Of a stretch of 56,996 nucleotides of DNA, positions 4,104 to 30,070 are shown in pieces. The DNA lies in contig CACZNT010000156.1 of the NCBI GenBank assembly GCA_902782635.1, forward strand, positions 1-56,996, written 5' to 3'. Position 1 is the first letter of the stretch; each line of letters begins with the position of its first letter. Source of the stretch: an uncultured Coriobacteriaceae bacterium (GTDB lineage: Bacteria; Actinomycetota; Coriobacteriia; Coriobacteriales; Atopobiaceae). Below the pieces are notes generated by a model. That model worked only from the letters and a program-made list of their open reading frames with translations. It searched no databases and was not told the origin of the DNA. The position numbers were made by a program, and so were the translations under genes.

Positions 4104-4116
4104 GGCTGGCCTCCTA

Positions 4117-5259: not shown

Positions 5260-5263
5260 GGCA

Positions 5264-8244: not shown

Positions 8245-8322
8245 GTCGTTCCTCTCTGGATGAAGTAACTGAATTCGAGCGAGATCCCGCCGCGCTGCGT
8301 CGCGAATCCCCGACGAGGGCAA

Positions 8323-8346
8323 GGCGGGGCGCCGAAGCGCCCCGCC
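8323..8346 (-). terminator. GC-rich hairpin between the 91-aa and 681-aa genes
   Basis: Perfect 10-bp arms GGCGGGGCGC / GCGCCCCGCC around the tetraloop CGAA. No clear U-tract follows on the minus strand, so it may attenuate or stabilise rather than fully terminate transcription entering the 681-residue gene. Confidence 0.55.
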
Positions 8347-8353
8347 CCCCTCC

Positions 8354-8629: not shown

Positions 8630-8705
8630 GTGAGCTCCCTTCTGTCTTCCCGGTATCTCCGGGAACCGACTGACAAGAGGGAGTATGTGCCCGCGGTCAG
8701 GTTTA

Positions 8706-8720
8706 TAGTATTTATTACTG
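8706..8720 (-). promoter_or_regulatory. Shared island element, copy 1 (TAGTATTTATTACTG on plus strand)
   Basis: One of four nearly identical 15-bp AT-rich elements in intergenic DNA of this GC-rich island. Here the imperfect inverted repeat reads CAGTAATAAATACTA toward the 91-residue gene. It may be an operator or part of a promoter; the adjoining TACTATAAA could serve as a -10 region. Confidence 0.55.
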
Positions 8721-8746
8721 TTACTAGGAAAACTGGCAGGAAGCGG

Positions 8747-9499: not shown

Positions 9500-9512
9500 C
9501 CGTCCCCTCCCC

Positions 9513-10226: not shown

Positions 10227-10235
10227 GACGCGCTC

Positions 10236-10835: not shown

Positions 10836-10856
10836 GGTTTTCTCCTATTCCTCGAG

Positions 10857-12152
10857 CTAGAGGGAAGTATTGATATCGGGTTCGCAGACGCTTGCCCCCG
10901 AGTTGTGTTCCAACATTGCGGGATGGCTGTCCACGTCGTACTTGACCACGAGCTCGCCGGGCCTGCCGCGCACGAACAGCCAGGATTTGCCGAGGGGCGT
11001 GGCAATGAGGCGCTCGGCCGTCTTGCCCGCGAAGCTCTCGTAGTAGTTCGCCGTCGCCATGTCCTGGAAGGCAAGCACGAGCTGCGTGTCGCAGTTGCCC
11101 ATGATGGTCTGCGCGCCGGCCATCCCATAGAGGCCGTTGAGCTGGGCGACCGTCTGGCACAGCAGCGTGCACCAGATCTCGCGGCTGCGTGTGACCGAGA
11201 TGATCCTCTCGAAATCGGGGATGCGCAGGTTGGAGAAGTCGTCGAGATAGAGGCGGACGGGCCAGGGCATCATGCCGCCAGGGCACTCGTCGGCCTCCTC
11301 GACGAGAGCCTGGAATGCCTGCGTCACGAAGAGGTTGGTGAGCGGCATGAGGCTGTAGTCGACATCCGAGACGGTCACGAAGAGCGCCACCTTCTCATGC
11401 CCCATGCCCGCGAAGTCGACCTTCGGCTCCAGGGCATACATGTCCAGAGCCTCCCGGAAGCCGAGGCAGCGGATCTTCTCGGCTATGATGCCGAGGATCG
11501 ACGCGTGCATCTTGTCTGCCGTAATTCCTCCGCTGTAGCGCCGGTAGAGGGCGAGGGCGAAGCTATCGGGGTGCGTGACCTCCAAGCCCTCGAAGTGGTT
11601 CTCGTACTCGTTCTTGTTCGAGACCACCTCCTCGAAGAGGTCCACCACCTCCGCCATCGTGTGACGCTCGGGTGGCATGGTCTCCAGCACGTACGCGACG
11701 AAGCTCGCGAAGTAGTTTGCGGCCGCATGGTCCCAGAAGGGCTCGTGGCCGTTCTCGACCGGACAGATCGCATCGGACACCGAGAGGATGTCCCGCTGGC
11801 TCGGCGCGCCCGTCACCGGATCGCGGCGGATGTGGTCGAGCGGATCGTAGCCCACCGTGCCGCAGACGTCGGTGAAGTCGAGGTTCTCCACGCGGTAGCC
11901 GTTTGCCGCAAGTATCGGTCCGACCTCCTCGTACAGAAGTCCCTTGGTGTCGAGCACCAAATAGCTCGCGTTCATCTGCAGCAGGTTGGGCTTGAGGAAG
12001 TTGCGCGTCTTCCCCGTGCCCGACGGCCCGAGCACGAGCTGATTGCAGTTGAGGTGGGTCTCCCACGTGTTGTTGGAGATGGTGTGCCCCTCGGCGAGGA
12101 TCGACTCGCTTCGATAGGGCTTGCGTACGTCATGTGTCTTGGGCTGTGCCAT
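10857..12152 (-). CDS. VirD4/TraG-like P-loop ATPase without membrane anchor
   Basis: A 431-residue ATPase similar to type IV coupling proteins (TraG/VirD4) of conjugative elements. Visible motifs are Walker A GPSGTGKT with the typical following KPNLLQMNASYLVLDTKG, a Walker B-like VRLYLDDFSN, and later blocks (SVTRSREIWCTLLCQ, IMGNCDTQLVL). Conjugative relatives carry N-terminal transmembrane helices, which are absent here. No relaxase or secretion gene is nearby. The start at 12152 is chosen because GGAGGG lies eight bases before it; another ATG six bases upstream is too close. It sits between a 108-residue protein and ClpP. It may be a mobile-element remnant or an ATPase recruited to another task. 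Confidence 0.85.
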   Translation of the reverse strand: MAQPKTHDVRKPYRSESILAEGHTISNNTWETHLNCNQLVLGPSGTGKTRNFLKPNLLQMNASYLVLDTKGLLYEEVGPILAANGYRVENLDFTDVCGTVGYDPLDHIRRDPVTGAPSQRDILSVSDAICPVENGHEPFWDHAAANYFASFVAYVLETMPPERHTMAEVVDLFEEVVSNKNEYENHFEGLEVTHPDSFALALYRRYSGGITADKMHASILGIIAEKIRCLGFREALDMYALEPKVDFAGMGHEKVALFVTVSDVDYSLMPLTNLFVTQAFQALVEEADECPGGMMPWPVRLYLDDFSNLRIPDFERIISVTRSREIWCTLLCQTVAQLNGLYGMAGAQTIMGNCDTQLVLAFQDMATANYYESFAGKTAERLIATPLGKSWLFVRGRPGELVVKYDVDSHPAMLEHNSGASVCEPDINTSL

Positions 12153-12164
12153 TCTCATTCCCTC

Positions 12165-12491
12165 CTAGAAATCCAGGCTTGCCTGGTCGTCTTTCATGAA
12201 GCTCTCGTAACGGCAGAAGAGCTCGTTTAGGATGGGGTCCTTTCCGCTCTCGATGATGAGGCGGCCCAGCAGGGTGTCCGGATGGACGGTCGTCTGCCGA
12301 TGCCAAAGAGAGTTCGCGAGGTGCTTTACCTCGACCATCATCTTGTCGAAGTCCTTGTCCGACATGTCGTCGAACTCACGCCGCTCAATGCGCTCCTTGA
12401 GGCCGAGCGCTGGGTTGCGCGTCCTGTGCCTCAGCGCATACATGGGCATGGTGCGATACCGATAGATGAGGTCTCGCAGTTGCTGTTGCAT
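12165..12491 (-). CDS. Small unknown protein upstream of the VirD4-like gene
   Basis: Unrecognised 108-residue charged, helical protein (segments LKERIERREFDDMSDKDFD and ILNELFCRYESFMKDD). It has an AAGGA site eight bases before the start and ends 12 bp before the VirD4-like ATPase, so the two are likely co-expressed. It could be an accessory subunit of that ATPase; this rests only on position. Confidence 0.62.
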   Translation of the reverse strand: MQQQLRDLIYRYRTMPMYALRHRTRNPALGLKERIERREFDDMSDKDFDKMMVEVKHLANSLWHRQTTVHPDTLLGRLIIESGKDPILNELFCRYESFMKDDQASLDF

Positions 12492-12555
12492 GGGGTGTTC
12501 CTTCCCGCAGCGGACCCGAGGGCCCGCCGCCTTGTGGTCTATCGGACGTCGGGGG

Positions 12556-12615
12556 CTACTCCAGCTCGCCGGGTTCCTCCGCAGCGGGCGTCCAGACGAA
12601 CGAGCTCCTGTGCAT
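12556..12615 (-). CDS. Possible 19-residue micro-ORF
   Basis: Short frame encoding MHRSSFVWTPAAEEPGELE, located between the 21-residue ORF and the 108-residue gene. There is no convincing ribosome site, and it may be chance. It is listed only because it continues the same strand and spacing as the micro-ORF upstream. Confidence 0.2.
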   Translation of the reverse strand: MHRSSFVWTPAAEEPGELE

Positions 12616-12634
12616 GGGGAAGGTCGACGAGCGT

Positions 12635-12700
12635 CTACACACTGGCAATCACCTCCTCGTCGAGGACGTAGTCCATCATCTTCTTGAGCGCGTCTGCCAT
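12635..12700 (-). CDS. Micro-ORF, 21 residues, strong ribosome site
   Basis: Encodes a 21-residue amphipathic, probably helical peptide (starts MADALKKMMDYV, ends EEVIASV). AAAGGAG stands six bases before the ATG, as strong as any ribosome site in the window. It is the first possible gene downstream of the shared element at 12785-12799. It may be a leader peptide controlling the VirD4/ClpP unit or a genuine small protein. No homology is known to me. Confidence 0.4.
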   Translation of the reverse strand: MADALKKMMDYVLDEEVIASV

Positions 12701-12784
12701 CGCGTCTCCTTTCGACGTACCCGCGGCCCCTCCTTGCGGGAGCCGCTTCCGACGCGAGGAATCATCCCCCGCGTCACCAGAGGT

Positions 12785-12799
12785 CAGTTGTTTTTACTG
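12785..12799 (-). promoter_or_regulatory. Shared island element, copy 2 (CAGTTGTTTTTACTG)
   Basis: Second copy of the 15-bp element, reading CAGTAAAAACAACTG toward the VirD4/ClpP unit and lying 84 bases before the 21-residue ORF. It is an inverted repeat of CAGT around an A-tract. The preceding bases (TTCCTACAAC) resemble those at copy 1 (TTCCTAGTAA), which suggests a longer conserved site. Confidence 0.55.
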
Positions 12800-12849
12800 G
12801 TTGTAGGAATCCAGGGACTCGGCAATGGGTCCCTAGCTGCTATTGCCCG

Positions 12850-14040
12850 CTATCGCTGGGACCGCTCGAGCGCGTCGAGCATCTCCTCGGCCACATACAC
12901 GTGCACGGGCGAGAAACGCGCTTGGCGCTTCACGACCACGCCGAGATCGGCAAGCTCCTCAAGCGCGTCGTGGACGTCGACGCCCACCCGTTCGCTCACG
13001 AGGGCTTCGGTGAGGATGGGTAGCTTGGCGAACTCCGCAGTCACTCGCATCGCCAGAGCCGAGGCATCGCCCGCGCGGTCGATTCGAGACGCGAGAAATC
13101 TCTCGGTGATTACGCGCAGCGCATCGACGCGCTCGGCAGCCTGCCTGCACGATCGGGCGAAGAGCATCGCGAAGGTGCTCGGGTCGGAAGGGCCGTCTCC
13201 ATTCACGAACGAATGGATCGCGCCTACGTAATCGTGTCCGCCCGAAAGCATCGCAGCCGTAATGGGGGGCAACATGCCATGCGCGATTCCCGCCTCTTGA
13301 AGTAGGCGTTGCGAGATGGCGCGCGACGTGCGGCCATTGCCGTCTTCGAAGGGATGGATGGTGACGAGCTGCACCTGGGCTATCGCCGCCTGCGCAACCG
13401 GATTCGTCACCCGGCCTCCAATGTGGGCCACGAGATCGTCCATGAGCTCGTCGAGCTCGTCTGCAGGAGGTGCGACATACTCGGCGTCGAAGAGGTCCTT
13501 GCCTATGAACACGGGGCGCTCCCGGAGCTGCCCGCAATCGTCCGCACGCGAGCTCGTGCGGGAGAAGATGGCATTCGCGGCGCAGAGGTCCGGGAGCGTG
13601 ATCCTGCCACTTGCGTCGAGCGCGAAGTCGCGAAGCGCTTCCATCGCATCCAAAGCCGCGGTTTCGGCTTCCCGGTACGCGAGGTTCGGGTCCAACCGCC
13701 TGCAGGCCGCGTACTCGAGCATCGAGGCGCAGCTCACTGCGTAATCCTCGGCCTGCGTGGTGGAGACCGCCTCGTTTGCCAGCAGGAGCTCGGCACAGGC
13801 ATCCGCAGCCGGAGATGCCGCCGCTGCCGCCATTGCCCGTTCGATGGCCTCGGTCGCCTCTGCGCAGGCCGTTGCGGCATCTTCCGAGAGCGGCCGCAGC
13901 GCGACGAGCTTATCGGGGAGATACGCCTCGTACTCCCGATAGCTCCCGTAATCCTCCGATATGCCCTCTTCCTCGAAATCGAGGTCGTTGGGAAGCTCGA
14001 GCAGATCGGGATCGAAGGTCTGATATACGAATCGGCCCAT
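12850..14040 (-). CDS. Fic-family protein (probable AMP transferase) with winged-helix tail
   Basis: A 396-residue Fic/DOC protein. The Fic motif HPFEDGNGRTSR (residues 229-240) is fully canonical, with His229 as catalytic base and the phosphate-binding GNGR loop. An N-terminal TTQAED (about 94-99) may correspond to the class II inhibitory helix ([S/T]xxxE[G/N]) with Asp in the last position. The C-terminal ~75 residues look like a winged helix, as in Fic_N/DUF4172-type regulators. Fic enzymes transfer AMP or other nucleotide groups to target proteins; the target is unknown. It is a single-gene unit with an unusually long leader containing a copy of the shared island element. Confidence 0.87.
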   Translation of the reverse strand: MGRFVYQTFDPDLLELPNDLDFEEEGISEDYGSYREYEAYLPDKLVALRPLSEDAATACAEATEAIERAMAAAAASPAADACAELLLANEAVSTTQAEDYAVSCASMLEYAACRRLDPNLAYREAETAALDAMEALRDFALDASGRITLPDLCAANAIFSRTSSRADDCGQLRERPVFIGKDLFDAEYVAPPADELDELMDDLVAHIGGRVTNPVAQAAIAQVQLVTIHPFEDGNGRTSRAISQRLLQEAGIAHGMLPPITAAMLSGGHDYVGAIHSFVNGDGPSDPSTFAMLFARSCRQAAERVDALRVITERFLASRIDRAGDASALAMRVTAEFAKLPILTEALVSERVGVDVHDALEELADLGVVVKRQARFSPVHVYVAEEMLDALERSQR

Positions 14041-14488: not shown

Positions 14489-15007
14489 ATGGCCGCAGAC
14501 ATGCAGATAGACGAGAACCTCGCCCCCGCCGCGCGCAGGGGGCAGAAGCGCGGGCTCTCGTGGGGCATCACGCGCGAGGAGCGCGAGCGCTACCGCGAGG
14601 CGCTTGCCATGCTCGAGCTTGGGCTCGAGACGCGCCTCTCCGACAAGGTGAGGCTTCTCTCCGGCGGGCAGCGCCAGGCCCTCACCCTGCTCATGGCAAC
14701 CATCAAGCGCCCCGACCCTCTGCTGCTCGACGAGCACACCGCCGCACTCGACCCAAAGACGGCCGCGAAGGTGCTCGAGCTCACCGACCGCATCGTGACC
14801 GAGAATAAGCTCACCACCATCATGGTCACGCACAACATGCACGACGCCATCCGCATGGGAACACGCCTCATCATGATGAGCGACGGGCGCGTGATCTACG
14901 ACGTGAGCGGCGAGGAGAAGGCCAACCTCCATCGCGCCGACCTCATGAAGAAGTTTGAGGAGGCCTCCGGCGTGGAGCTTGCCAGCGACCGCATGCTGCT
15001 TGGCTAG
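14489..15007 (+). pseudogene. 5'-truncated ABC importer ATPase
   Basis: This frame matches, over its whole length, the last ~170 residues of the intact ABC ATPase at 34891-35685, including AADMQI(D/E)ENLA, LLSGGQRQALTLLMAT, LLLDEHTAALDPKTAA, VTHNMHDAIR and the identical ending ELASDRMLLG. About 93 N-terminal residues, including the Walker A loop, are absent and no ribosome site precedes it. It cannot be a working ATPase. It is probably what remains of a second importer operon after the island DNA to its left was inserted or after a deletion. Confidence 0.9.
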
Positions 15008-15255: not shown

Positions 15256-18129
15256 ATGTTTCCACCCAATGAGGCCCAGAGGGAAATTATCGAGCACATC
15301 GATGGACCCCTGCGCGTAATTGCCGGCCCCGGTACGGGAAAGACCGCCACCATCGTGCTTCGCGTCGCGCACATGGTAATGGACAAGGGAATCGACCCCG
15401 GAAGCATCATGGTGGCGACCTTTACGAAGAAAGCCGCCAACGAGCTGACGTCGCGCATCGCGAACGAGTTTGCCGAGCGGCAGATGACGGTGGACACGAG
15501 CCGCATGCTCGTTGGCACCTTCCACTCGATCTGCCTCAGGCTGCTCAGCGAGTACGCCCCCACGAACGCGCTCAAGAACCTCGGCGTCCGGAAAGACCAT
15601 GATGCCGTGTACGAGCTCTGCAGCAAAGAGCATGCGGGGCTCATGGCAAGCCTTGAGCGGGCGGGCATCTTCACCACCGCGAGCGGTCGTCCGCAAAAGG
15701 GAAGCCGGCTAGCGAAGTCGTTCCTCGATGCAGTCGATGCCATGAAGGACGCGCGCCTCAGCGCCGACGAGCTTCTTCAATCAAACGACGTTGCGCTGGC
15801 CAAGCTTGCGCCGATCGTCGCGCGCTACCAAGACGAGGCGGCGGGCAGCGACGAGTTTTCTTACGCCGACTGCCAGACGCGACTCCTCGACCTGCTGGAG
15901 ACTGACGAGGAGGTGCTCGCGCAGCTCAGGCGGCGCATCCGCTACATCATCGTGGACGAGTACCAAGACACCAACCCCATCCAGGAGGAGATTGTCCTCA
16001 AGCTCGGAGGAGAAGACGCAAACATCTGCGTCGTTGGCGACGACGACCAGAGCCTCTACCGCTTTCGCGGGGCGACCGTGGAGAACATCATCCGCTTCGA
16101 CGAGAACTTCGCGCCCGATCGCTGCGCGAAGAAGGAGCTCACCGTCAACTACCGCTCGCAGCCCGGCATCGTTGACTTCTGCTGCCGCTGGATGGAGAGC
16201 CTGCCCTGCAGCACGGGCATCTCATGGGAGGGCGAAGGTGGCGCGCGCTACCGGGTGCCCAAGCGTCTCTCTGCGTTCGAGCGCCCGGACGACCAGGGTA
16301 CCTGGCTCAACCCAATATCGGTGGCAAGCTGCACCGGCGACGGCCTCGACGACTGGTGCGAGCGAATGCTCGAACTCGTGCGTTCCCTCCCGGTGGATGA
16401 CCTCAGCCAGATAACGTTCCTCTGCCATTCCACGCGCTGGAGCGACGAGGTGAATGCCCTCATCAGCCATTTCGAGAAGAACGGGATTCGGACCTATTCG
16501 CCAAGATCGGGCGGCTTCTTCGAGCTCGAGGAAGTTCGGCTCGCCATCGGCACGCTGATGCTGGCAACCGAGGAGGAGGGCCGCAGCAGGCGCTCCGGCG
16601 CGTTCGACGATTGCGTTGCCAGCGCGCGCGACTTGGTCGCGACCGACCGCGGCCTCGCCGCTTGGATTGAGCAGTCACGCCTGATGGCATTGCAGAGGCA
16701 AACGGACAAGAGCGAGCATCCCGTGCTCGAGCTATTCTTCCAGATGCTCGCATTCGAGCCCTTCGCCAGCTGGATTGGGCAGAGCCGCAGCATGACGCTG
16801 GCGGACACCCTGCCCGCGCGCAACCTCGCCAAGCTGGCAGAGCTCATCGAGACGAGCGAGGCGGAGCAGAACGCGAAAAGCCGGTATGGGTGGAATCGCC
16901 CGTCATGGCAGGCGCACTGCCTCTTTGATGAGTACCTGCCCTTCCTGAAGGATGCGGGCCTCATTGAGGGATACGAGGACGAGGAGGAGGCCGTTCCGAG
17001 CGGGCACATCTCGTTCATGACCTTCCATCAGGCCAAAGGCATGGAGTTTCCCGTCACGATCGTCTGCTCGCTTGACCAAATCGCAAGGTCGCGGGATGAT
17101 GTCGCGTCCAAGCTCCACCGCCTGGGAGGGCATCGGAGGGCGGGCGCGGAGCCGGCGGAGCACACCGCGACATTCGACTACTGGCGCGTGTACTACACCG
17201 CATTCTCGCGCGCCGCCGACCTGCTTGTTCTCACTACCTCGGGCAAGAAGCCGATGAGCAGCTGCTTCGGAGGGCTCTACGAGGAGCTTCCCTCCACAGA
17301 GTCGCTCGACCTGAGCAGCCTCCACCTGCGCCCGCTCAAGCCCTCGCGAGACATGCGTAGCTATGCCTTCACCTCAGATGTCGCAGCCTACCGACGCTGC
17401 CCTCGCAAGTACCGCCTGAACCATCTGCTCGGCTTCTCGGAGACCACGAGGCAATCGCTGCTCTTCGGAACGCTCGTACACCATACAGTCGAGGACATCC
17501 ACCGGCGCGTGCTGCGCACGGGCGAGAGGTTCGTACCAAAAGACGACGTGTACAGCCTGGTATGCGCCAACGCCGCCGAGCTAGAGTCCGCGACGGGCTC
17601 GCGCCTCAAGGCAAGGGTCGACGAAGCGTACCGGCAGACGATGCGCTACATCGTCGGATACCGTGACATCTGGCAGAACGTGCGATTCACCGAGCTCTCC
17701 CTGAGTGACGTGCGCCAGCTTCCGGGCAGCGAGCGAGGAGGCTACATCCTCAAGGGCCAGATCGATCTCGTGAGCGGGGATGATGGGAGAACAACCATCG
17801 TCGACTTCAAGACCGGGCGCATCCCCCGTGACGACTCCCCAACCATGAGCCATTATCGCGAGCAGCTCCTCGTCTACAAGAGCCTGCTCGATCGGAGGAC
17901 AGATGTCGACCTGCCCCCGGCAAGCGAGGCAAAGCTGTTCTTCACGGGAGCCTCCAGGGAGGAAGACCCACTCAGAAGCTTCGAGGTAGACGCACAGGAC
18001 GTGCGCGCCATGCTCGAGGAATTCGACGGGGTCGTGCGCCGGATCGAGGAGCGCAATCTGGATGCCCGCGCGGAGGATTCGGGCGAGTGCAAGCGCTGCA
18101 ATTTTAGGTGGCACTGCGGCAGGGCATAA
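15256..18129 (+). CDS. UvrD/PcrA-like SF1A helicase fused to a Cas4/AddB-type nuclease
   Basis: A 957-residue helicase-nuclease. The helicase part shows Walker A AGPGTGKT (23-30), TFTKKAANEL (Ia), GTFHSI, Walker B IIVDEYQDTN (231-240), GDDDQSLYRFRGA (III), NYRSQPGI (IV), FMTFHQAKGMEFP (V) and YYTAFSRAADLL (VI). The C-terminal ~250 residues are a RecB/Cas4-like PD-(D/E)XK nuclease: GTLVHHTVED, GQIDLVSGDD and VDFKTG supply the active site. Cys in YRRCPRKYR (~715) and three Cys in CKRCNFRWHC (near the end) can hold a [4Fe-4S] cluster, as in AddB and Cas4. It opens a five-gene operon. Relatives resect DNA ends in repair, but the neighbours suggest phage defence. Confidence 0.92.
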   Translation: MFPPNEAQREIIEHIDGPLRVIAGPGTGKTATIVLRVAHMVMDKGIDPGSIMVATFTKKAANELTSRIANEFAERQMTVDTSRMLVGTFHSICLRLLSEYAPTNALKNLGVRKDHDAVYELCSKEHAGLMASLERAGIFTTASGRPQKGSRLAKSFLDAVDAMKDARLSADELLQSNDVALAKLAPIVARYQDEAAGSDEFSYADCQTRLLDLLETDEEVLAQLRRRIRYIIVDEYQDTNPIQEEIVLKLGGEDANICVVGDDDQSLYRFRGATVENIIRFDENFAPDRCAKKELTVNYRSQPGIVDFCCRWMESLPCSTGISWEGEGGARYRVPKRLSAFERPDDQGTWLNPISVASCTGDGLDDWCERMLELVRSLPVDDLSQITFLCHSTRWSDEVNALISHFEKNGIRTYSPRSGGFFELEEVRLAIGTLMLATEEEGRSRRSGAFDDCVASARDLVATDRGLAAWIEQSRLMALQRQTDKSEHPVLELFFQMLAFEPFASWIGQSRSMTLADTLPARNLAKLAELIETSEAEQNAKSRYGWNRPSWQAHCLFDEYLPFLKDAGLIEGYEDEEEAVPSGHISFMTFHQAKGMEFPVTIVCSLDQIARSRDDVASKLHRLGGHRRAGAEPAEHTATFDYWRVYYTAFSRAADLLVLTTSGKKPMSSCFGGLYEELPSTESLDLSSLHLRPLKPSRDMRSYAFTSDVAAYRRCPRKYRLNHLLGFSETTRQSLLFGTLVHHTVEDIHRRVLRTGERFVPKDDVYSLVCANAAELESATGSRLKARVDEAYRQTMRYIVGYRDIWQNVRFTELSLSDVRQLPGSERGGYILKGQIDLVSGDDGRTTIVDFKTGRIPRDDSPTMSHYREQLLVYKSLLDRRTDVDLPPASEAKLFFTGASREEDPLRSFEVDAQDVRAMLEEFDGVVRRIEERNLDARAEDSGECKRCNFRWHCGRA

Positions 18130-18166
18130 GGGCGGTTTGATGGCGGGGTCAAGCGGAGGAAGCGCC

Positions 18167-20272
18167 ATGACGGAGAAGACTGTCGACGAGTATTTCGAAG
18201 AGCGCGGCTGGGACATCACAGAGTTCTACCAAAGCCTCTACGACCGGGAGCGTCTGGCCGACTCGATGGACGCGGGCACGCCCGACCTGAACGCGCTCTA
18301 CGATTTCACAGATCCTTGGAGCGGATGCAACCTCCTGATTGCCAGGCTCTTGGACGAGGAATCAGGGCAGCGCTTCGTCGAGAATGTCCGCTGCACACTC
18401 GCCGCAAGCACGAGCTATCGAACCTCAAGGCAGCTGACGCTTGGGGAGCTGGCAGGGACGTGCGCTGATTACGCGGCACCCGAGCTGCTCATCATCGGGG
18501 GAATTGGCGAGTTCCTCCAGTCTCCAGATGACGGGTGCGCAGCCGCAATCAAAGCCACGCTCCAGGCCATTCGACAGGGAGGGGCTCTCAACGCCAAGGC
18601 CCTTGTCATAGGATCCCCCGAGGAGGTCGACTCCCTGATGCGCGACATCCTCGACGACGAGTACCAGCAATTCGTCATCCGCATCAGGCCCACGCACGCA
18701 GAGGCGCTCTTCTTGGATTTCGTCGATGCCCTGGATCCGGTTCTTCACGAAAAGCAGGAGGTTCGCATGCAGCAGGGCGAAGACGAGCTCCGGCCAAAGT
18801 TCGTCGATTATGTCGAGTTCAACTACGACAGGCTGCCCGCGCAGGGGAAGGAACTGGCGCACCTGCTCGCCGACAGGTGCAACGAGCAGGGCAAGCTTGG
18901 ACTTCCCGATGACGGCCGCTCCCTCGGGCGCGCCCTGCGGGAGTGCGGCCTCCTACTCAATGGGAGAATGCGCCGGAATCTAGGCGATTACTTCTCGTAT
19001 GCGAAGCAGTTCAAACGTGCCAGCAACGCAGGCAGAAAGATGCCGCCAGCAAATCACAACGCTATCGTCTTCGGAAATCCAGGTACCGGCAAGACGCGGT
19101 TTGCGAGAATTCTGGCCAAGATCCTGATTGAATGCGGCGTAGCCGAGACAGTTGCATCGGTTGATGCAATCGATTTGTTTGGCACGCGCGTCGGGCAGAC
19201 GAGGCGCAATGTCCTGAAAAAGGCAGAAGAGCTCCACCGAGGTGTGCTGATCATCGAGAACGCCTTTGCACTCGCGAGCGAGCAGACCCGGAGCCTAGGC
19301 GACGAGGCGGTGTCTGCCTTGGTCGAGGTGATGGACTCCTGGCCCGGAGAGCTCACGATCATCCTCGTGGCAGCATCTTCGGCTGCGGACTACATCCTGG
19401 AGGCCAACCCCGATCTCGCCTCCCGCCTGGGGTGGTCGTTCGCCCTACCACCTTGCGATGCAGACCTGCATGCGGCAATAGCACTGGACGAGCTAGACGA
19501 GTCGGAGCTCATCATCGAGGACATGGGGCTTGTCGCCAGCGAACTCGTCAAGCTGTTTTCCTATTTTGACGGCATGCCGCAGCTCGGAGGCGGCCGCTTT
19601 GCGAGGCGCGTTGCCCAGGAGATCATCTTCACCCATACGCTGAGAACCGGGGAGCTTGCGGGCAATCTGGAGCCCGAAGACATCCCCTCCCGGGAGAGGG
19701 TTTGCGAGATGATGCGAGTCCGGCACGTCAGCGGGACAGAGGAGGGCAAGCTCAAGACCGCACGGCACGAAGCGGGGCATGTCGTCTGCGACCTCGCGCA
19801 ATTTGGGCTGGGGTGCGTGCAAGAAGTTACCATCGACCCGAGGGGTGCGGGCGCGAACGGCTTCACCAGGCTCATCTATTCGGACGCGATGCCAAGCCTC
19901 TCCTTCTATCGCAAGAGGTTGGTCGGCATGTACGGCGGAATGGCCGCCGAGCTGCAGTTCTACAACGAGAGTTTCGGCGGCGTGGAAGGCGACCTCGAGC
20001 AGGCGACGCTGTACGCGCGCGAAATGGCAACGCGCCTCGGGATGGAGGAAACACTCACTAGCTATCCAAGGGCCTGCCCCCTGCACGAGCTACCGGAAGC
20101 GGTCCAGGAGGAGATAGAGGCCCGCCTGCGATGGGCCCTGGACGAGGCGCGGGTGATCGTCTCCAGGAACGCCGAGCTAGTTGACGCCATCGCGAAAGCA
20201 CTGATGACGAATACGGCCCTCAGGCAGAGGGAGATAGAGGATATCGTCGGCAAGCACGGCGGAATCCATTAG
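18167..20272 (+). CDS. CbxX/EccA-like AAA ATPase fused to an M41 (FtsH-type) peptidase
   Basis: A 701-residue protein with three parts. Residues ~1-280 are unrecognised. Residues ~295-430 form an AAA domain of the CbxX/SpoVK type (Walker A GNPGTGKT 303-310; DLFGTRVGQTRRNVLKKAEE; NPDLASRL). Residues ~525-700 form an M41 peptidase (HEAGH 534-538 for zinc; EGDLEQAT supplying the third ligand near 609). The Walker B/catalytic pair, normally IDEA, reads IENA here, so hydrolysis may be altered. There are no membrane helices, unlike FtsH. The start is set by GGAGGA before 18167. It probably unfolds and cleaves a specific protein. It follows the helicase by 37 bp and precedes the next gene by 8 bp. 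Confidence 0.86.
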   Translation: MTEKTVDEYFEERGWDITEFYQSLYDRERLADSMDAGTPDLNALYDFTDPWSGCNLLIARLLDEESGQRFVENVRCTLAASTSYRTSRQLTLGELAGTCADYAAPELLIIGGIGEFLQSPDDGCAAAIKATLQAIRQGGALNAKALVIGSPEEVDSLMRDILDDEYQQFVIRIRPTHAEALFLDFVDALDPVLHEKQEVRMQQGEDELRPKFVDYVEFNYDRLPAQGKELAHLLADRCNEQGKLGLPDDGRSLGRALRECGLLLNGRMRRNLGDYFSYAKQFKRASNAGRKMPPANHNAIVFGNPGTGKTRFARILAKILIECGVAETVASVDAIDLFGTRVGQTRRNVLKKAEELHRGVLIIENAFALASEQTRSLGDEAVSALVEVMDSWPGELTIILVAASSAADYILEANPDLASRLGWSFALPPCDADLHAAIALDELDESELIIEDMGLVASELVKLFSYFDGMPQLGGGRFARRVAQEIIFTHTLRTGELAGNLEPEDIPSRERVCEMMRVRHVSGTEEGKLKTARHEAGHVVCDLAQFGLGCVQEVTIDPRGAGANGFTRLIYSDAMPSLSFYRKRLVGMYGGMAAELQFYNESFGGVEGDLEQATLYAREMATRLGMEETLTSYPRACPLHELPEAVQEEIEARLRWALDEARVIVSRNAELVDAIAKALMTNTALRQREIEDIVGKHGGIH

Positions 20273-20280
20273 GAGATGGC

Positions 20281-23226
20281 ATGGGAGTCAGCGAATACTA
20301 CCTCGACGCAGTGCGATCTGCGTTCATGACGAGGCTCGACCTTTCGGAGGCGGGCTACGTGCGTGCAGAGGCGGGGAGCAGGCCCCCGTCAGGCACGCCC
20401 TACTATGCCGTTGACATGGACGCGATTCTCGACAGGAAGCTGCCCGACGGCCTCGCCAAAGAACTGAAGCCCTGCCAGAAGCACGATGAGGAGGATGAGG
20501 GGGCTGATACCCACACGGATCTGGTGAACCTCGCGCTGGTTCTCTCCTATGTGAAGAAGGACGAAGCCCCTGCGGACGCGCTGCTGATCGTGCCGGTGCA
20601 AATGCTCTCGGGCGGGCGCCTCATCGTGCCGTGGGATTGGACGTTCACGCCTGTCATCCCGCGGGATTTTCTCGCAGAGGACGGCGAGGATTTGGCAGAT
20701 GGCCCCTACATCGGCACATATGGCGCCTATCGCAGCTTTATCGACGAGTGGCAGAAAGCCTTCCTTGACCAGTTCAAAGACGCAAACGACCAGCAAGAAT
20801 GGGAGACGGCCTGGAACACGTACCTCGATTTCTGCTTTAGCCTCTACGAGAGCGTTGCTGGGCACGCGGACAATCTGCCGATAGAGCATGCGCGCGCAAG
20901 GGGAGATGTCGCCTACGTCCTCGAGGACAAATCCGTCAATGCGACGCGATCAATCATCGACCTGTATAAGTGGATCACAGCCGGCCACCCCCAAAGTAAC
21001 GCCTACAGGCGCTTCATCGGCGAGCTGGAGGACGGTCGGCCCGGCAGCGCGGCCACACTGTCGGCAGCGGAGCAGATGAAGCTATGCCGCGCCGCCCCGG
21101 ATACGAAGTACCCCCTATGCGCGTCCCAGCGCCAGGCGGTGGTCGAGGCCTCTGCCGCAGGACCAGGCAGCATCGTTGCTGTGAGCGGCCCTCCCGGCAC
21201 GGGCAAGACGACGCTTCTAAAGAGCGTCGTCGCCAACGAGCTCGTCAGGTGTGCCCTGGATGGTGAGTTACCGCCCGTAATCGTCGCCACATCGACCAAC
21301 AACCGCACCATCACGAATGTCACGGATGAGTTCGCGACAGCAGGCCAGGCAGATAAGGCCGGCGGGCTATTCGAACGCTGGCTTCCCGATCCAGACGATG
21401 CCAGAGCCCCTCTCAGGAGCTTGAGCGTCTATGTGCCCTCAGAGAAGAAGCGGAAAGCCGCACGGGAGAAGGGCTATCTGACGGACCGCTTTCGTCTGCC
21501 CGCAGACAAGGGCAACGTTGATGCAAGCTACCCCAGCTTCTATGACGAGATGAGCAATGCGGACAGCCTGGCCAAGGCCAAGGAGTTCTTTGGGGAGAAG
21601 GCGGTGAATGGCCTCGAGAGGCCCGGCGCGATAAGAGCCTGCCTGGCACGGATCGACAGGCTGCGGTGCGACCTGATTGATGCCGTCGCCGGAGGGCATG
21701 AGGGGAAGGCCGAAGGACTCATCAAGGAGCTGAACGGGTCAGACCTCGCAATCAGCCTTCCCGATGACATCTGCACCGATCTCGCGGGGCTTGGCAAAGC
21801 CCTGGAGACCACTGTCTGCCCGGTCGAGTTTTGGCTTGCGATTCACTACTACGAGGCGCTTTGGCTCGAGGGCAGCAAGGACAGCGGTTTGGGGCGGCGC
21901 CTGCCCAGGGAGTGGCGCGGAAACACGTTCCAGGAGAACGAGCGCAGCTTCCATCGCCAGCTGGCCTGCCTGACTCCCGTGCAGGTCATGACCCCCTACC
22001 TGCTCGCACGGGAATTCCAGGTGTATAAGGACGGCATCACGTACCCCGAAACACCTCCCATCGACCTGCTCATCATCGACGAGGCGGGACAAGTGGACAG
22101 CCCCATCGTCGCCCCGGCGCTCGCGCTTGCAAAGCGGGCAGTGGTTGTGGGCGACGGCGAGCAGCTCGAGCCCGTGTGGGGACGAGAGCCCGAGGAGGAT
22201 CTGCGCCGCTACCGGGGGCTTTCGCCAGAGTGCACCAGCGAGCGGTTCGAGGAGCTGCGCACGTCCGGCAGAGCGGCCTCAAAGCCCTCGTCATGCATGG
22301 TCGCCGCCCAGATGGCAGCTGGGAACAGACATGTTCTGCTCAGGGAGCACTTCAGGTGCAAGGCTCCGATAATCTCCTTTTGCAACGAGCTCGCCTACGA
22401 GGGCAAGCTGATACCGTCGAGAATTGACGAGGAGGGAAGCCCTGCATCGACCCTGTCCCTGCCACCGATGTCGCGAATCCCCGTGGACGGCGCGTCGTCC
22501 CGCAGCTTGGGCAGCAGGGCCAATTGCAACGAGGCGAAGGCCGTGCTGGACTGGATCGACGAGCATTTCGACGGACTATGCGAGCACTATGGGAGGAAGG
22601 ACGAGGATAGGGCTGGGCTTCTCGGCATAGTGACGCCCTACAAGGCGCAGGCAGAGCTCATCAAGAAGGGCCTCGGGGAGAGGCAGCTCAGCGAGGACAT
22701 TGTCTGCGATACCGTTCACGCCCTGCAGGGCGGCGAGTGCAACGTCATCCTCTTCTCCCTTGTGCTCGGGTCGATAGACAAGACCGGTTTTGTCGAGGAT
22801 CAGCCCAACTTGATGAATGTCGCCGTGTCGCGAGCTAAGGATGCCTTCGTGCTCTTTGCAAATCCCGAGGTACTGCAGAAGGCTGAGGAAGGCAGCGTGA
22901 TCGGACTCTTGGCAAAGCATTGCCCCGAGCACACGGTCGAAGATGCCCCGGCAGCGAGCCTCACGCAGCACATCAGGCAGTGGAAGGCCGATGATCCGTT
23001 GTTCGAGGGTCTGAGGGCTGCTGAGGTGAACAAGATGCTGAACGAGCTCGGCTACCTCGTGGGGCGCCCGGGAGATTGGGACATCACGGACAAGGGCGCA
23101 GGCATCGGGATGCGCCTCGTGCAGAAGACGAGAGACGGAGGCGAGGTCTTCGAGCAGATCGAGTACACAGACGCTGCGGCAGAGGCGCTCAGAGAGGTCC
23201 TTGCCGCGCGGCTTCGCGATAATTGA
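20281..23226 (+). CDS. UPF1/Dna2-like SF1B helicase
   Basis: A 981-residue superfamily 1 helicase. Motifs in order: Q-like CASQRQAV, Walker A GPPGTGKTT (~301-309), Walker B LLIIDEAGQVDS (~597-608), VVGDGEQLEPV (III), LREHFRC (IV), TVHALQGGECNVILFS (V) and LMNVAVSRAKDAFVLF (VI). These are typical of the UPF1/Dna2 group, which moves 5' to 3' on nucleic acid. About 300 N-terminal residues are unrecognised. A ~280-residue insertion separates the Walker A and B regions, longer than in simple relatives. The gene starts 8 bp after the AAA-M41 gene and ends 35 bp before the dGTPase gene, so it is in the same operon. Confidence 0.9.
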   Translation: MGVSEYYLDAVRSAFMTRLDLSEAGYVRAEAGSRPPSGTPYYAVDMDAILDRKLPDGLAKELKPCQKHDEEDEGADTHTDLVNLALVLSYVKKDEAPADALLIVPVQMLSGGRLIVPWDWTFTPVIPRDFLAEDGEDLADGPYIGTYGAYRSFIDEWQKAFLDQFKDANDQQEWETAWNTYLDFCFSLYESVAGHADNLPIEHARARGDVAYVLEDKSVNATRSIIDLYKWITAGHPQSNAYRRFIGELEDGRPGSAATLSAAEQMKLCRAAPDTKYPLCASQRQAVVEASAAGPGSIVAVSGPPGTGKTTLLKSVVANELVRCALDGELPPVIVATSTNNRTITNVTDEFATAGQADKAGGLFERWLPDPDDARAPLRSLSVYVPSEKKRKAAREKGYLTDRFRLPADKGNVDASYPSFYDEMSNADSLAKAKEFFGEKAVNGLERPGAIRACLARIDRLRCDLIDAVAGGHEGKAEGLIKELNGSDLAISLPDDICTDLAGLGKALETTVCPVEFWLAIHYYEALWLEGSKDSGLGRRLPREWRGNTFQENERSFHRQLACLTPVQVMTPYLLAREFQVYKDGITYPETPPIDLLIIDEAGQVDSPIVAPALALAKRAVVVGDGEQLEPVWGREPEEDLRRYRGLSPECTSERFEELRTSGRAASKPSSCMVAAQMAAGNRHVLLREHFRCKAPIISFCNELAYEGKLIPSRIDEEGSPASTLSLPPMSRIPVDGASSRSLGSRANCNEAKAVLDWIDEHFDGLCEHYGRKDEDRAGLLGIVTPYKAQAELIKKGLGERQLSEDIVCDTVHALQGGECNVILFSLVLGSIDKTGFVEDQPNLMNVAVSRAKDAFVLFANPEVLQKAEEGSVIGLLAKHCPEHTVEDAPAASLTQHIRQWKADDPLFEGLRAAEVNKMLNELGYLVGRPGDWDITDKGAGIGMRLVQKTRDGGEVFEQIEYTDAAAEALREVLAARLRDN

Positions 23227-23261
23227 TAGCAAGCACGAAAGCTTAGAGATGGGAGCTGGCT

Positions 23262-24905
23262 ATGGGCAAAACGCTGAAGAAGCGGAGGATGGAGTGGGGG
23301 AACCTGCTGGGCTCCGACGATGCGGTGCAAGCGGGCCATTCAACTCCGGAAATGGAAGGTTTGGACCCCGACGATGCGGTGCAAGCGGGCCATTCAACTC
23401 CGGATTCAACTAAGAAAGTAATGGACGAGTATGAGAAAAATCTACGTAAGATTGTACTGACTGCTCCCGATAAGCTTAGGGCAAGTTATCAGCGACTCGT
23501 CGCCTCCTCGCCCGTGCGCGCGATGCAGGACAAGACGCAGGTGTTCGCCTTGGATCCATCGGATTTCGTGCGCACCAGGCTCACGCACTCGCTCGAGGTG
23601 TCCGAGATCGCAGAGCACATCGTGCGCGCAGCGGTGGTCCTGATGACGGACGAACAGAAAAAAGAGAAATATGAGGAGACGTTTAAGGAGAAAGGTGAGG
23701 ATATCGCGATTGGCAATGAGTTTGTGGAGAACGCTGAGGATATCGCGATTGTCGCCAAGACCGCAGGCCTCCTCCACGATATGGGAAATCCCCCCTTCGG
23801 CCACATGGGCGAGCAGGTGATCAAAGGCTGGATGGGGCAGCGCCTGAAGCAGGGCCTGAGAGGGATGGAGGGTATCGACGAAGAACATAGAAAAGCTAAG
23901 ATAAAAGATCTGATTAACTTCGAGGGCAATGCGCAGGCAATCAGAATCCTTCTGCGCAAGACCGCCTTTGGCGACATGGCCGATATCACAGTCTCGAAGT
24001 CGGTCATCGGCGCGCTCGCGAAATATACGAGGTGCGCTGCCGAGAACAAAGAAGACGAGTCCATTTGGAATCACAAGCCCGGATACTACCTGAGCGAAGC
24101 AACAGCCTTTGAAGATCTCATGAAAGACATGATGAAACCCATGAACCTAGATGAGCTAAAGAAGACGAAGGCGGGCATTCCGCGGCATCCGATAGCGTTC
24201 ATTCTCGAGGCGGCGGACGATATCGCATACGCGACGGCGGATTTCGAGGACTCCTTCAGCAAGGGACTGATCGGCAAAGAGGAGATTGAGGAGTACGGCA
24301 AGCGGGCTAAAGAGGCACATATTACGGATTTCGAGGACTACTGGTGCGCCATGATACACTTCGATTGCCTTCGCGAGCTGCTTAAGACCAATAAGGACGA
24401 GGACTTCGCCGTCCACTGGTGGATGAGGCACGTGAGAGAGGCTCTTGTCTATGTTGCCGCCTACCAGTTCCTGGATAAACTTCCGGATATTATGAAGGGC
24501 ACCTTTACGGGAGAGCTGCTCTTCTGCAACAGCGATAATCACCCTTCGAATGGGGCAGCCACTGCCAAGCTGCTCAAGCAATACGCCAAGACCTATGCCC
24601 ACGAGAGCTCTGAGGTGAAGCATCAAGACGAATTGGCAAAGCGCTACCTCACGCGCCTGCTCGACGAGCTTGCCGATGCGGCTGAGGACTACGTGAGATT
24701 GGGCAAGGATAACCAGCTGCTTCCAGGGGAGCTCAGGAAGGCCCTCGCCCTCGGTCCCATCAAGGAAAAGGAAGACGACTGGCATTACGAGCTGTATCGC
24801 ACGGTTCTTGACTACGTGAGCATCTTGACGGACCACAAGGCCCAGGAGCTTGCCGAGGCGTACGAGAGCATCCGGGCGCCATGGGAGCTCATCTCAAAAA
24901 ACTGA
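23262..24905 (+). CDS. dGTPase-type HD-domain dNTP triphosphohydrolase
   Basis: A 547-residue HD phosphohydrolase of the Dgt family, which hydrolyses dGTP or other dNTPs to nucleoside and triphosphate. Family signs: N-terminal MEWGNLLGS, QDKTQVFAL, TRLTHSLEVSEIA (first metal His), LLHDMGNPPFGH (HD pair near 170) and EAADDIAYATADFED (last metal Asp). Such enzymes are known to protect bacteria from phage by depleting dNTPs. Two exact 37-bp DNA repeats make a 13-residue duplication near the N-terminus. Composition is more AT-rich than that of its neighbours, suggesting separate acquisition. It overlaps the next gene by one base. Confidence 0.92.
   Translation: MGKTLKKRRMEWGNLLGSDDAVQAGHSTPEMEGLDPDDAVQAGHSTPDSTKKVMDEYEKNLRKIVLTAPDKLRASYQRLVASSPVRAMQDKTQVFALDPSDFVRTRLTHSLEVSEIAEHIVRAAVVLMTDEQKKEKYEETFKEKGEDIAIGNEFVENAEDIAIVAKTAGLLHDMGNPPFGHMGEQVIKGWMGQRLKQGLRGMEGIDEEHRKAKIKDLINFEGNAQAIRILLRKTAFGDMADITVSKSVIGALAKYTRCAAENKEDESIWNHKPGYYLSEATAFEDLMKDMMKPMNLDELKKTKAGIPRHPIAFILEAADDIAYATADFEDSFSKGLIGKEEIEEYGKRAKEAHITDFEDYWCAMIHFDCLRELLKTNKDEDFAVHWWMRHVREALVYVAAYQFLDKLPDIMKGTFTGELLFCNSDNHPSNGAATAKLLKQYAKTYAHESSEVKHQDELAKRYLTRLLDELADAAEDYVRLGKDNQLLPGELRKALALGPIKEKEDDWHYELYRTVLDYVSILTDHKAQELAEAYESIRAPWELISKN
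23314..23404 (+). repeat. Two exact 37-bp direct repeats inside the dGTPase gene
   Basis: Copies at 23314-23350 and 23368-23404 are identical, with starts 54 bp apart, so the frame is kept. Each encodes DDAVQAGHSTP in the loop between the N-terminal motif and the HD core. The spacer encodes EMEGLDP. Confidence 0.97.
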
Positions 24906-26038
24906 TGATGCCTCCTGCCGAAGTCACACAAGCGCGTGCGAAGGGATCCATTCGCGCAATCGCCTACAAGGGCAGCTATCTCGAGACGCGCTGGGATGAC
25001 GACGGCACGGGGGCACGCTACCACAACGAGCGCGTACGGCGCATTCTCGAGCGGTTACCCGAATCGGCTCGAAAGGGCGCAGAAGTGCTGCACGTCGCGG
25101 ATCTCGAAAAAAAGACGGACGAGGAGATTGGACGGCTGCGAGATGCCATCGTCTTGGTCGATGACGATCGCGTTGCCTGGGATGACGCAGGCGATCCCGC
25201 GAAGAAGCAGCTTGGGGCGCTTGTCGGCAGGCTGCGCAAGGCGCAGGGCGCCCATGTACAGCTCATCTGCTCGGAAGACATCCTGCCTAAGGGAATGGCG
25301 GCGGAGCCCGTCGACGCACCTTCCATATTCGACGTCAGCTTCGAGCGAGACTCAAAGATCGTCAACAGGATGGAGAACGCCTTCGAGATAGCGATCGAGG
25401 AGGTCTTGTCGCGACTTGATGGCCTGTTCCTCAGCGACCACGTCAAATTCGATTCGATCAAGCAGGGCACGCGAAAGCTGTCGGAACGAAAGGACATCAG
25501 ATGCCTGTGGACAAGCCCCGGCTATGTCGAGTTCGACTACGTGGTGTACGACGAGCACAATAGGATTGTCGCCGCGATCGAGATTGACGGCAGCGTCCAC
25601 AGGTACAAGTATGAGGAAGATGCGAGTGGCAGCAGCTCGTCTCCACGATGGAAGCGCTTCGCGTTTCCCGAGAGCGAGGGCGAGCTGGCGGAGAAAGACA
25701 GGAACGCCCTCTTGGACACCTGCAAGAACGACATCCGGAAGGACAGGTTCGCTGTTGACAAACTTGGCGCAGCGCCCGTGAGGCTCTCGACGGACAGCGC
25801 ATACACTCCCGCATCGCTGCTGTTCATGAGAGAGCGGCTTCCCGACATCCAGCCGGTGAATTGGATCAGGTCGGCGGAGGAGATACCAAAGGATGCTCCG
25901 TTCATCTACATGCGCATCTCCACAGACGGCAGCACCTATGGCGAGATTGATGAGCTATGCGAGCTCATAGGCAGGCAAGCCAAGCTGATGACCAGCCAGA
26001 GGAAAGGCGTTCGCTACCTGACCCTCAGCGCAACGTGA
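24905..26038 (+). CDS. DUF2726-like PD-(D/E)XK nuclease candidate
   Basis: A 377-residue protein and the last of the operon. The region at about residues 205-300 resembles DUF2726 restriction-endonuclease-like proteins: EFDYVVYDEHNRIVAAIEIDG places Asp and Glu as in PD-(D/E)XK active sites, and a following NALLDTCKNDIRKDRFA helix is also typical of that family. The N-terminal ~150 residues are unrecognised. The start is taken at 24905, where TGATG joins the previous stop; an in-frame ATG at 24881 would overlap 25 bases. It presumably nicks or cuts DNA together with the helicases. Confidence 0.68.
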   Translation: MMPPAEVTQARAKGSIRAIAYKGSYLETRWDDDGTGARYHNERVRRILERLPESARKGAEVLHVADLEKKTDEEIGRLRDAIVLVDDDRVAWDDAGDPAKKQLGALVGRLRKAQGAHVQLICSEDILPKGMAAEPVDAPSIFDVSFERDSKIVNRMENAFEIAIEEVLSRLDGLFLSDHVKFDSIKQGTRKLSERKDIRCLWTSPGYVEFDYVVYDEHNRIVAAIEIDGSVHRYKYEEDASGSSSSPRWKRFAFPESEGELAEKDRNALLDTCKNDIRKDRFAVDKLGAAPVRLSTDSAYTPASLLFMRERLPDIQPVNWIRSAEEIPKDAPFIYMRISTDGSTYGEIDELCELIGRQAKLMTSQRKGVRYLTLSAT

Positions 26039-28100: not shown

Positions 28101-29522
28101 CTACTCCCGGCCGTTCCAGCAGTAGGTGCACACCTTTTCCGGGTCGATGCCGATGGCGTCGAGCATCCCCTCGAGCGACTGGAACGAGAGCGAGTCGAAG
28201 CCCATCTCCTCGCAGATGGAGCGCAGCAGGCACTGGCCGCGCTCGGTGCGCGCGTCGGCGTACTCGTCGATGTGGGCCTCGCCCTCCTCGCCCTCCGCCT
28301 CGCGAATCACGCGACGCGCGATGAGGTCGTAGTCGGAGCGGCCGCGGGAGAACGAGAGGTACTTGCAGCCGTACATGATGGGCGGGCAGGCGCTGCGCAT
28401 GTGGACCTCCGCGGCACCGGCCTCGTAGAGGAAGTCGACCGTCTCCTTGAGCTGGTTGCCGCGCACGATCGAGTCGTCCACGAACAGCAGCCTCTTGCCC
28501 TCGATGAGCTCGGGCACGGGAATCTGCTTCATCTTGGCCACGCGCTTGCGCACGGCCTCGTTTGCCGGCATGAAGGAGCGCGGCCAGGTGGGCGTGTACT
28601 TCACGAACGGGCGGGCAAAGTGCGCGCCGCTCTCGGTGGCATAGCCCACCGCATGGGGGATGCCCGAATCCGGCACGCCCGCCACGTAGTCCACCTCGGG
28701 AAGCACGCCGCGCTTGCGCTCGTCGGCCGCCATGCGCGCGCCATTGCGATAGCGCATCACCTCGACGTTCACGCCCTCGTAGTTTGAATTGGGGTAGCCG
28801 TAGTACACCCACAGGAACGCGCAGATGCGCATCTTGTCGCCCGCGGGAACGAGCGTCTCGTAGCCGTTGGCCGTGATGAGGCAGATCTCGCCCGGCCCCA
28901 GCTCGTAGGCGTCCTCGTAGCCCAGCTTGCCGTAGGCGAAGCTCTCGAAGGTGACGCAGCAGCCGTCCGCATCGCGCCCGATGAGGACGGGCAGGCGGCC
29001 CATCCTGTCGCGCGCGGCGATGAGCGTGCCATCCTGGCGCATGATGAGCAGCGTGAGCGAGCCCTCGACCTGCTCCTGCGCATAGCGGATGCCGTCGATG
29101 AGGTTGTTCTGGGTGTTGATGAGCGCTGCCACGAGCTCGGTGTTGTTCACCTCGCCCGAGCTCTGCGCCATGAACTGATGCCCCACATGGCTGAAGGCGT
29201 CGATGAGCGCGTTGTAATTGTTGATGCAGCCCACCGTAGTGATGGCGAACACGCCCAGGTGCGAGCGCACGAGCAGCGGCTGGGGATCCGAGTCGGAGAT
29301 GCAGCCGATGCCCGAATTGCCGCGGAACTCGGGCAGGTCGTGCTCGAAGCGCGTGCGGAACGGCGTGTTCTCGATGGAGTGGATCTCCTTCTTGAAGCCG
29401 CCCTCGGGGTCGATGAACACCATGCCCGCGCGGCGCGTGCCGAGATGTGAGTGGTAGTCGACGCCAAAGAACACGTCCATCACGACGGCACGATGAGATG
29501 CCGCGCCAAAGAATGCGCCCAT
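28101..29522 (-). CDS. PurF-like amidophosphoribosyltransferase lacking the N-terminal cysteine
   Basis: A 473-residue homologue of glutamine PRPP amidotransferase. The C-terminal PRTase domain is well kept, with the PRPP loop LLFVDDSIVRGNQ. The N-terminal Ntn-hydrolase domain is recognisable (YHSHLGTRRAGM, LGVFAITTVGCINN, GEVNNTELVAALI), but where PurF begins CG(I/V)xG this protein begins MGAFFG. The nucleophilic cysteine for glutamine hydrolysis is therefore missing, and Met or Gly would be first. I recall similar MG(G/A)FFG-type PurF paralogues in gut anaerobes. It may use ammonia directly or act on something other than glutamine. It marks the right side of the island. Confidence 0.87.
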   Translation of the reverse strand: MGAFFGAASHRAVVMDVFFGVDYHSHLGTRRAGMVFIDPEGGFKKEIHSIENTPFRTRFEHDLPEFRGNSGIGCISDSDPQPLLVRSHLGVFAITTVGCINNYNALIDAFSHVGHQFMAQSSGEVNNTELVAALINTQNNLIDGIRYAQEQVEGSLTLLIMRQDGTLIAARDRMGRLPVLIGRDADGCCVTFESFAYGKLGYEDAYELGPGEICLITANGYETLVPAGDKMRICAFLWVYYGYPNSNYEGVNVEVMRYRNGARMAADERKRGVLPEVDYVAGVPDSGIPHAVGYATESGAHFARPFVKYTPTWPRSFMPANEAVRKRVAKMKQIPVPELIEGKRLLFVDDSIVRGNQLKETVDFLYEAGAAEVHMRSACPPIMYGCKYLSFSRGRSDYDLIARRVIREAEGEEGEAHIDEYADARTERGQCLLRSICEEMGFDSLSFQSLEGMLDAIGIDPEKVCTYCWNGRE

Positions 29523-29985: not shown

Positions 29986-30042
29986 ACCTGTCCCTCTTGT
30001 CATGACAACGGGGACAGTCCCTCTTGTCATGACAAGAGGGAC
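29986..30042. repeat. TGTCCCTC palindromes (REP-like)
   Basis: Two adjoining inverted repeats built from TGTCCCTCTTGTCATGACA. The second (30017-30042) is a perfect 26-bp palindrome. They resemble in style the other palindromes at 30251-30308, 38321-38397 and 49182-49277. Confidence 0.85.
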
Positions 30043-30070
30043 AGGTTCAATTGTCTTTTGCGGGGAGGGT

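Follow-up and report, generated by a model that had tools for sequence, protein, structure and literature searches.

Does the five-gene operon at positions 15256-26038 of contig CACZNT010000156.1, from an uncultured Coriobacteriaceae bacterium, a gut-type actinobacterium of the Coriobacteriales and probably of the Atopobiaceae, serve in defence against phages, and do its genes form one system? The window, that is the whole stretch of 56,996 nucleotides that was analysed, carries here five intact open reading frames (ORFs), termed g1 to g5, for which a reading made from the sequence alone had proposed a joint antiphage function. On balance, we lean towards reading it as a mobile and composite operon for defence against phages (or plasmids), and the defensible version of this proposal is a candidate defence operon built of recurring modules. 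A defence operon is favoured because of the tight co-directional spacing with a stop/start overlap, the pairings of the modules in other genomes, a coupling-protein gene upstream and the rarity of the genes in relatives. The five genes as a recurrent system are unsupported, since the full set was found in no other genome searched. The genes, and what each assignment is based upon, are:

15256..18129, + strand: g1, UvrD/Rep SF1A helicase with a C-terminal PD-(D/E)XK nuclease and a Cys cluster (Pfam, NCBIfam, motifs, full-length plasmid homologues)
18167..20272, + strand: g2, N-terminal domain, single AAA domain (SpoVK/CbbX-like) and M41 metallopeptidase (Pfam, NCBIfam, motifs)
20281..23226, + strand: g3, UPF1-like SF1 helicase with an MkoC-type core and a putative winged-helix-like C-terminal domain (Pfam, PADLOC, alignments)
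23262..24905, + strand: g4, Dgt-type HD deoxynucleoside triphosphate (dNTP) triphosphohydrolase (Pfam, PADLOC, NCBIfam, motifs)
24905..26038, + strand: g5, DUF2726-type PD-(D/E)XK nuclease (Pfam, colinear alignment with helicase fusions)

Layout and families of the five genes

The genes are separated by 37, 8, 35 and -1 bp, the last value representing a one-base overlap of the g4 stop and g5 start codons (TGATG). A codon-model gene call chose the same five ORFs, although this is not fully independent, four of them having served to train the model at first. The operon extends over approximately 10.8 kb, is frameshift-free, and has intact catalytic motifs in all five products, the g2 Walker B excepted; a tight tandem of five long intact genes from such families is far beyond chance. 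In a promoter/terminator scan the number of promoters equalled the shuffle expectation. The sequence-only reading had given the same coordinates, spacing and overlap, and its five family assignments agree with those from Pfam, NCBIfam and PADLOC, that of g5 by way of the fusion alignment described below.

The product of g1 matches UvrD-helicase (5e-66) and PDDEXK_1 (1e-26), and possesses Walker A (GPGTGKT), Walker B (VDEYQD) and nuclease (DFKTG) motifs together with four cysteines in a cluster (RRCPRK ... CKRCNFRWHC) of the Fe-S Cas4/AddB type. It resembles PcrA/UvrD helicases and, more weakly, AdnAB/AddA.

The g2 protein matches AAA (9e-11), Peptidase_M41 (5e-21) and SpoVK/CbbX-type AAA (8e-25) profiles, and at 74 bits against an equivalog cut-off of 600, and with a non-canonical Walker B, it is not an FtsH (AAA-M41) protein. 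Its Walker A (GNPGTGKT) and zinc site (HEAGH, followed by GDLEQA) are intact, but its Walker B reads LIIENAF, with EN in place of DE. Relatives in the family and order carry two AAA domains before the M41 domain whereas g2 has just one, and those inspected show a canonical Walker B (FIDEAY or FVDEAY) in each AAA domain. In AAA proteins such a change should permit ATP binding and impair hydrolysis. The remaining AAA domain of g2 thus probably binds ATP and scarcely hydrolyses it, which would make a nucleotide-gated switch likelier than an unfoldase. No M41 protease tied to phage defence was found in the literature searched. In several genomes of the family a small YbjN-like protein is encoded beside the AAA-AAA-M41 proteins (L014 9068-9583, L017 2657-3193 and L018 11297-11833), the Pfam match having been tested in L014 only.

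Gene g3 specifies a helicase with AAA_11/AAA_12 domains, the best PADLOC match of which is MkoC of Mokosh type II (PDLC03924; 562 bits, 1.1e-168). No PLD domain was found in it by Pfam. Residues ~887-981 constitute a separate C-terminal domain, unlike the tail of MkoC, for which a winged-helix-like fold can be guessed from the sequence pattern. This domain of ~70-95 amino acids, which matches no Pfam family, recurs at the ends of SF1 helicases, of helicase-DUF2726 fusions and of one AAA-AAA-M41 protease. Its carriers are:

Window 20281-23226: g3, C-terminus
L131 7641-10637, L128 7883-10885 and L132-L135: further carriers
L020 7641-7946, and probably 4051-5619: carriers in this locus

The dNTPase g4 matches dGTP_triPase of Pfam (2e-69) and the PADLOC dGTPase (3e-55), and its motif (RLTH ... 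LHDMGNPPFGH ... DD) is intact. With 234.8 bits against a cut-off of 152.35 and an intact HD motif, it belongs to the dGTP triphosphohydrolase family TIGR01353. It is closer to PRK01096 (278 bits against a cut-off of 439) than to the anti-phage model NF041026.

Alone, g5 matches DUF2726 weakly (E 0.0036, under the gathering score), and its N-terminal ~139 amino acids have no assigned family. It contains the motifs FDYVV ... IEIDGSVHR and a C-terminal 'FIYMRISTDGSTYGE' extension, which is also present in helicase fusions. Eight genomes of the order encode an SF1 helicase and a DUF2726 domain in one protein, usually of ~1000 amino acids, although in L129 it is split by a frame break. The fused DUF2726 domain is colinear with residues 140-353 of g5, including the 'SIFD' start and the 'FLRIPSDGSTFWE' extension, and because of this alignment we regard the assignment of g5 as secure. 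The fused proteins also possess a C-terminal domain homologous to residues 887-980 of g3 in at least six of the eight (1.6e-7 to 2.4e-6 for four, with weaker matches in two). The window seems to carry on two proteins, g3 and g5, the functions that the fused proteins carry on one. The helicase core of g3 is of the MkoC subfamily and is not close kin to the fused cores. A profile search of the PDB gave no match to the g5 domain, and a structure predicted from the single sequence was discarded (pLDDT 39.8).

Distribution of the genes and contexts of their relatives

The full five-gene set was absent around relatives in the 140 family genomes, in samples from the class (400 genomes) and the phylum (397) and in 80 GTDB loci, and viral contigs did not yield it either. 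The sequence-only reading had looked to co-occurrence of the five families in other genomes, and had chosen beforehand its failure as the outcome that speaks against it; the families were not found together. At the thresholds used, g1 (140 family genomes, 1e-55), g4 (91 genomes of family and order, 1e-15) and g5 (140 family genomes) were present in their own genome only. The g3 helicase occurs in 6 of the 140 family genomes including its own (1e-20), and g2-type proteins in eight others of the 140, in ten others of the class sample (11 genomes in all, 1e-28) and in two of the 397 phylum genomes. The accessory character claimed for the locus is borne out by these counts. The g5 domain was found in 10 of the 400 class genomes; g5 had no match in 72,556 plasmid records, and an apparent relative in G317 was treated as chance, as the match overlaps a frame for a dGTPase in L136 and could not be reproduced. 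The source genome is a draft assembly in 224 contigs with 84% completeness and 5.5% contamination. Part of the 28-33 kb block of the window is syntenic with the relative G082 (75-82% protein identity), and we therefore assign the contig to its lineage.

What recurs elsewhere is pieces of the set: a helicase followed by a dGTPase, the fusion of helicase, DUF2726 and C-terminal domain, the same C-terminal domain attached to an AAA-M41 protein, and restriction operons that contain a g1 relative. To begin with the last, nine full-length homologues of g1 were examined on plasmids (33-35% identity, 99-100% coverage). In eight of the nine loci the same run encodes a methyltransferase together with a DEAD- or TnsA-N-type protein. 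These follow the g1 homologue directly in seven loci and come after two small genes in that of Spirosoma; only the locus of Annamia lacks both. The methyltransferase is of type III by profile in L150, the one locus scanned, and the third gene of that operon has no PADLOC match. This compact operon, headed by the UvrD/Fe-S PD-(D/E)XK gene, occurs on plasmids from Bacillota, Pseudomonadota and Bacteroidota; it resembles a type III-like restriction system in which a helicase-nuclease comes first. Its copies are located at:

L150 8959-16202, L151 8965-16551, L152 8989-16423 and L153 8986-17525
L154 8986-16287, L155 8977-18131, L156 8001-15417 and L157 7986-15287

A relative of g4 (~31% identity) is the final gene of a long co-directional run on three Aliarcobacter plasmids. 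An MkoC-like helicase immediately precedes it in pM830MA, where this helicase is split into two annotated ORFs, and in pAFAEC (L164 and L166); in pACRY43158 (L165) it is preceded by an MkoA-like helicase and then one uncharacterised gene. Jointly, these runs hold QatA, HerA with SIR2, an MkoA/PLD pair (Mokosh type I), a NACHT protein and an LmuB-like ATPase. Their ends are similar, with SbcCD/LmuB-like genes at the start and DUF2779, helicase and dGTPase at the end, and their middle modules are swapped (NACHT; QatABCD; SIR2-HerA with DUF6602 and MkoA/PLD). They occupy:

L164 6823-21462
L165 1-16359
L166 1-16359

Three of the eight loci encoding helicase-DUF2726 fusions have defence neighbours, namely HsdM/HsdS with DUF262, AbiE, and Dcm with a restriction endonuclease. 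In G064, the AAA-AAA-M41 relative of g2 (L020 7641-11177) begins with the C-terminal domain of g3 (BLASTP 8e-11). The next + strand gene of this locus encodes an SF1 helicase that has a UvrD-type match, after which come type I restriction-modification-like and toxin-antitoxin-like genes.

Surroundings and possible function

The features upstream of the operon are:

10857..12158, - strand: TraG/VirD4-type coupling protein of a type IV secretion system (T4SS; Pfam T4SS-DNA_transf 1e-34), ~3 kb upstream of the operon
12850-14040, - strand: Fic protein
14492..15007, + strand: truncated ABC ATPase, directly upstream of the operon

The truncated ABC ATPase shares 78% identity with the 3' part of a second copy that lies 20 kb away, at 35170-35685. 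The first two genes are part of a minus-strand block (5264-14040) which also codes for ClpP, a metallophosphatase and several large unassigned ORFs. Among the neighbours tested, Pfam recognised no relaxase, and the window is devoid of tRNA genes. The coupling protein, the upstream minus-strand genes and the truncated ABC copy suggest a conjugative element, or a remnant of one, beside core genes. A purF-like gene (28101-29522) is located 2 kb from the operon, and four of the eight fused loci, which are in another family (L131, L132, L133 and L135), have one at a distance of no more than a few kb. A hotspot beside this gene was considered and is not claimed: in L131, L132 and L135 the fused locus lies on the opposite side of the gene, and the surroundings of the gene are not conserved in most of 12 relatives. 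This proximity is probably a coincidence or a loose hotspot. Also present in the window are a 42 bp direct repeat (98%) and several stretches of ~60-105 bp that are self-complementary, most of these features falling within or close to intergenic regions:

29986-30046
38295-38397
49182-49277
55373-55477

How might such an operon work? From the families of the genes and their relatives we infer antiviral function, physical interaction, the order of events and the role of g2. Modelled on the fused relatives, g3 and g5 would act as a split helicase-nuclease in which g3 loads on or senses foreign nucleic acid and g5 cuts; g1 may be a second, RecB/AdnB-like helicase-nuclease resecting DNA; g4 would hydrolyse dNTPs such that phage DNA synthesis stalls; and the M41 protease g2 could be a nucleotide-gated switch cutting one partner or inhibitor. 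That all this amounts to a single integrated five-component immune system, with g3/g5 as sensor and cutter, g4 starving replication, g1 degrading DNA and g2 turning the response on or off by cleavage of a partner, is possible but rather doubtful.

A defence role of some kind is supported by the association of relatives with defence contexts, and this part of the proposed joint antiphage function is plausible; the part which made the five genes a recurrent system is not supported. Several observations weigh against a defence operon. The set is unique within the data searched, and among the 80 best GTDB loci of g3 none has a g4 or g5 neighbour, there being a few generic UvrD matches and one FtsH-like match. 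The nearest actinobacterial relatives of g3 stand alone among ordinary genes, and five of the eight fused-helicase loci have no obvious defence neighbours. The three Aliarcobacter plasmids have a common tail and represent one lineage, and some relatives of g4 are ordinary dgt genes (P. aeruginosa, Enterobacter) and others have different neighbours (TcmP, QueC-like genes, Druantia). Finally, the neighbourhood counts are small and come from best hits with no matched control, so that they do not constitute an enrichment test.

A small defence island of two to four units (g1; g2; g3 with g5; g4), stacked under one promoter and working separately, is an unlikely account. Stacking with swapped middle modules is what the Aliarcobacter super-operons display, and each of the five families is also found without the others, but here g4 sits between g5 and g3, its probable helicase partner. 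A single regulated unit is suggested by the TGATG overlap and by gaps of 8 to 37 bp, and the C-terminal domain of g3 is common to g2- and g5-type proteins. We consider it distinctly improbable that the genes are a DNA repair or maintenance module of a conjugative element, serving recombination, transfer or protection of its own DNA. The coupling protein 3 kb upstream and the likeness of g1 to PcrA/UvrD and, more weakly, AdnAB/AddA helicases would fit such a module; against it are the lack of a recognised relaxase among the neighbours tested, the fact that dNTP hydrolysis is of no obvious help to repair synthesis, and the clustering of relatives with restriction-modification, Abi, Qat, Druantia and Mokosh genes. 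Least credible is that decaying mobile cargo was stacked here by chance and has no function in common: the full set was seen once, the adjoining ABC gene is a truncated fragment, and g2 is one AAA domain short with an altered Walker B, yet ~10.8 kb have remained free of frameshifts and the active-site residues are kept in the nucleases, the dNTPase, the zinc site of the protease and both helicases.

If the operon is indeed for defence, it would join nucleolytic attack and dNTP depletion, which are usually studied apart, under one promoter with a protease as a possible regulator. The pairing of helicase and dGTPase is seen in both Actinomycetota and Campylobacterota, and the winged-helix-like domain linking helicases, DUF2726 nucleases and AAA-M41 proteases could be a handle for a wider modular family.

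Comparison with known systems

Neither PADLOC nor the literature searched (combinations of DUF2726, Mokosh, M41 and dGTPase) contains a system with this gene set, in line with the sequence-only reading, to which no such system was known. Mokosh type II is a single-protein system. It shares with g3 the MkoC-type SF1 helicase core, but g3 has another C-terminal domain in place of the PLD nuclease, as well as four extra genes beside it, and an HxK-type PLD-like tail is visible in the MkoC relatives L112 and L068. Because the PLD is absent, we rejected g3 as Mokosh type II. Nor is the operon counted as Gabija, in which an OLD/TOPRIM nuclease (GajA) stands beside a UvrD helicase (GajB). Here g1 matches GajB mainly across the helicase core; no GajA/OLD match for g1-g5 was present among the PADLOC matches listed (the best 25 for g1), and Pfam found no TOPRIM/OLD domain.

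The UvrD-nuclease plasmid operons (L150-L157) likewise have a full-length g1 homologue as the first gene of a compact operon, but our operon continues with g2-g5 rather than with methyltransferase and TnsA-like genes, and Pfam found no methyltransferase domain in g2-g5. The composite operons of Aliarcobacter resemble it in having an MkoC-like helicase followed by a g4-type dGTPase, co-directionally and within a long defence run. They differ in that DUF2779 is the upstream partner, homologues of g1, g2 and g5 were not found there, and the dGTPase is only ~31% identical. With the anti-phage dGTPases g4 shares the HD triphosphohydrolase family and the intact motif, but for the curated model NF041026 its score is 142 bits, below the cut-off of 400; the likeness of g4 to dNTP-depleting defence enzymes is in how it would work. 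The same kind of likeness, a helicase paired with a nuclease, exists to Hachiman, in which the sensor helicase HamB is paired with the effector nuclease HamA (PMC12278908); the helicase and nuclease families are other ones, and no Hachiman profile is among the PADLOC matches listed. Helicase-nuclease pairs and dNTP depletion are known classes of defence, and the gene set is a new combination.

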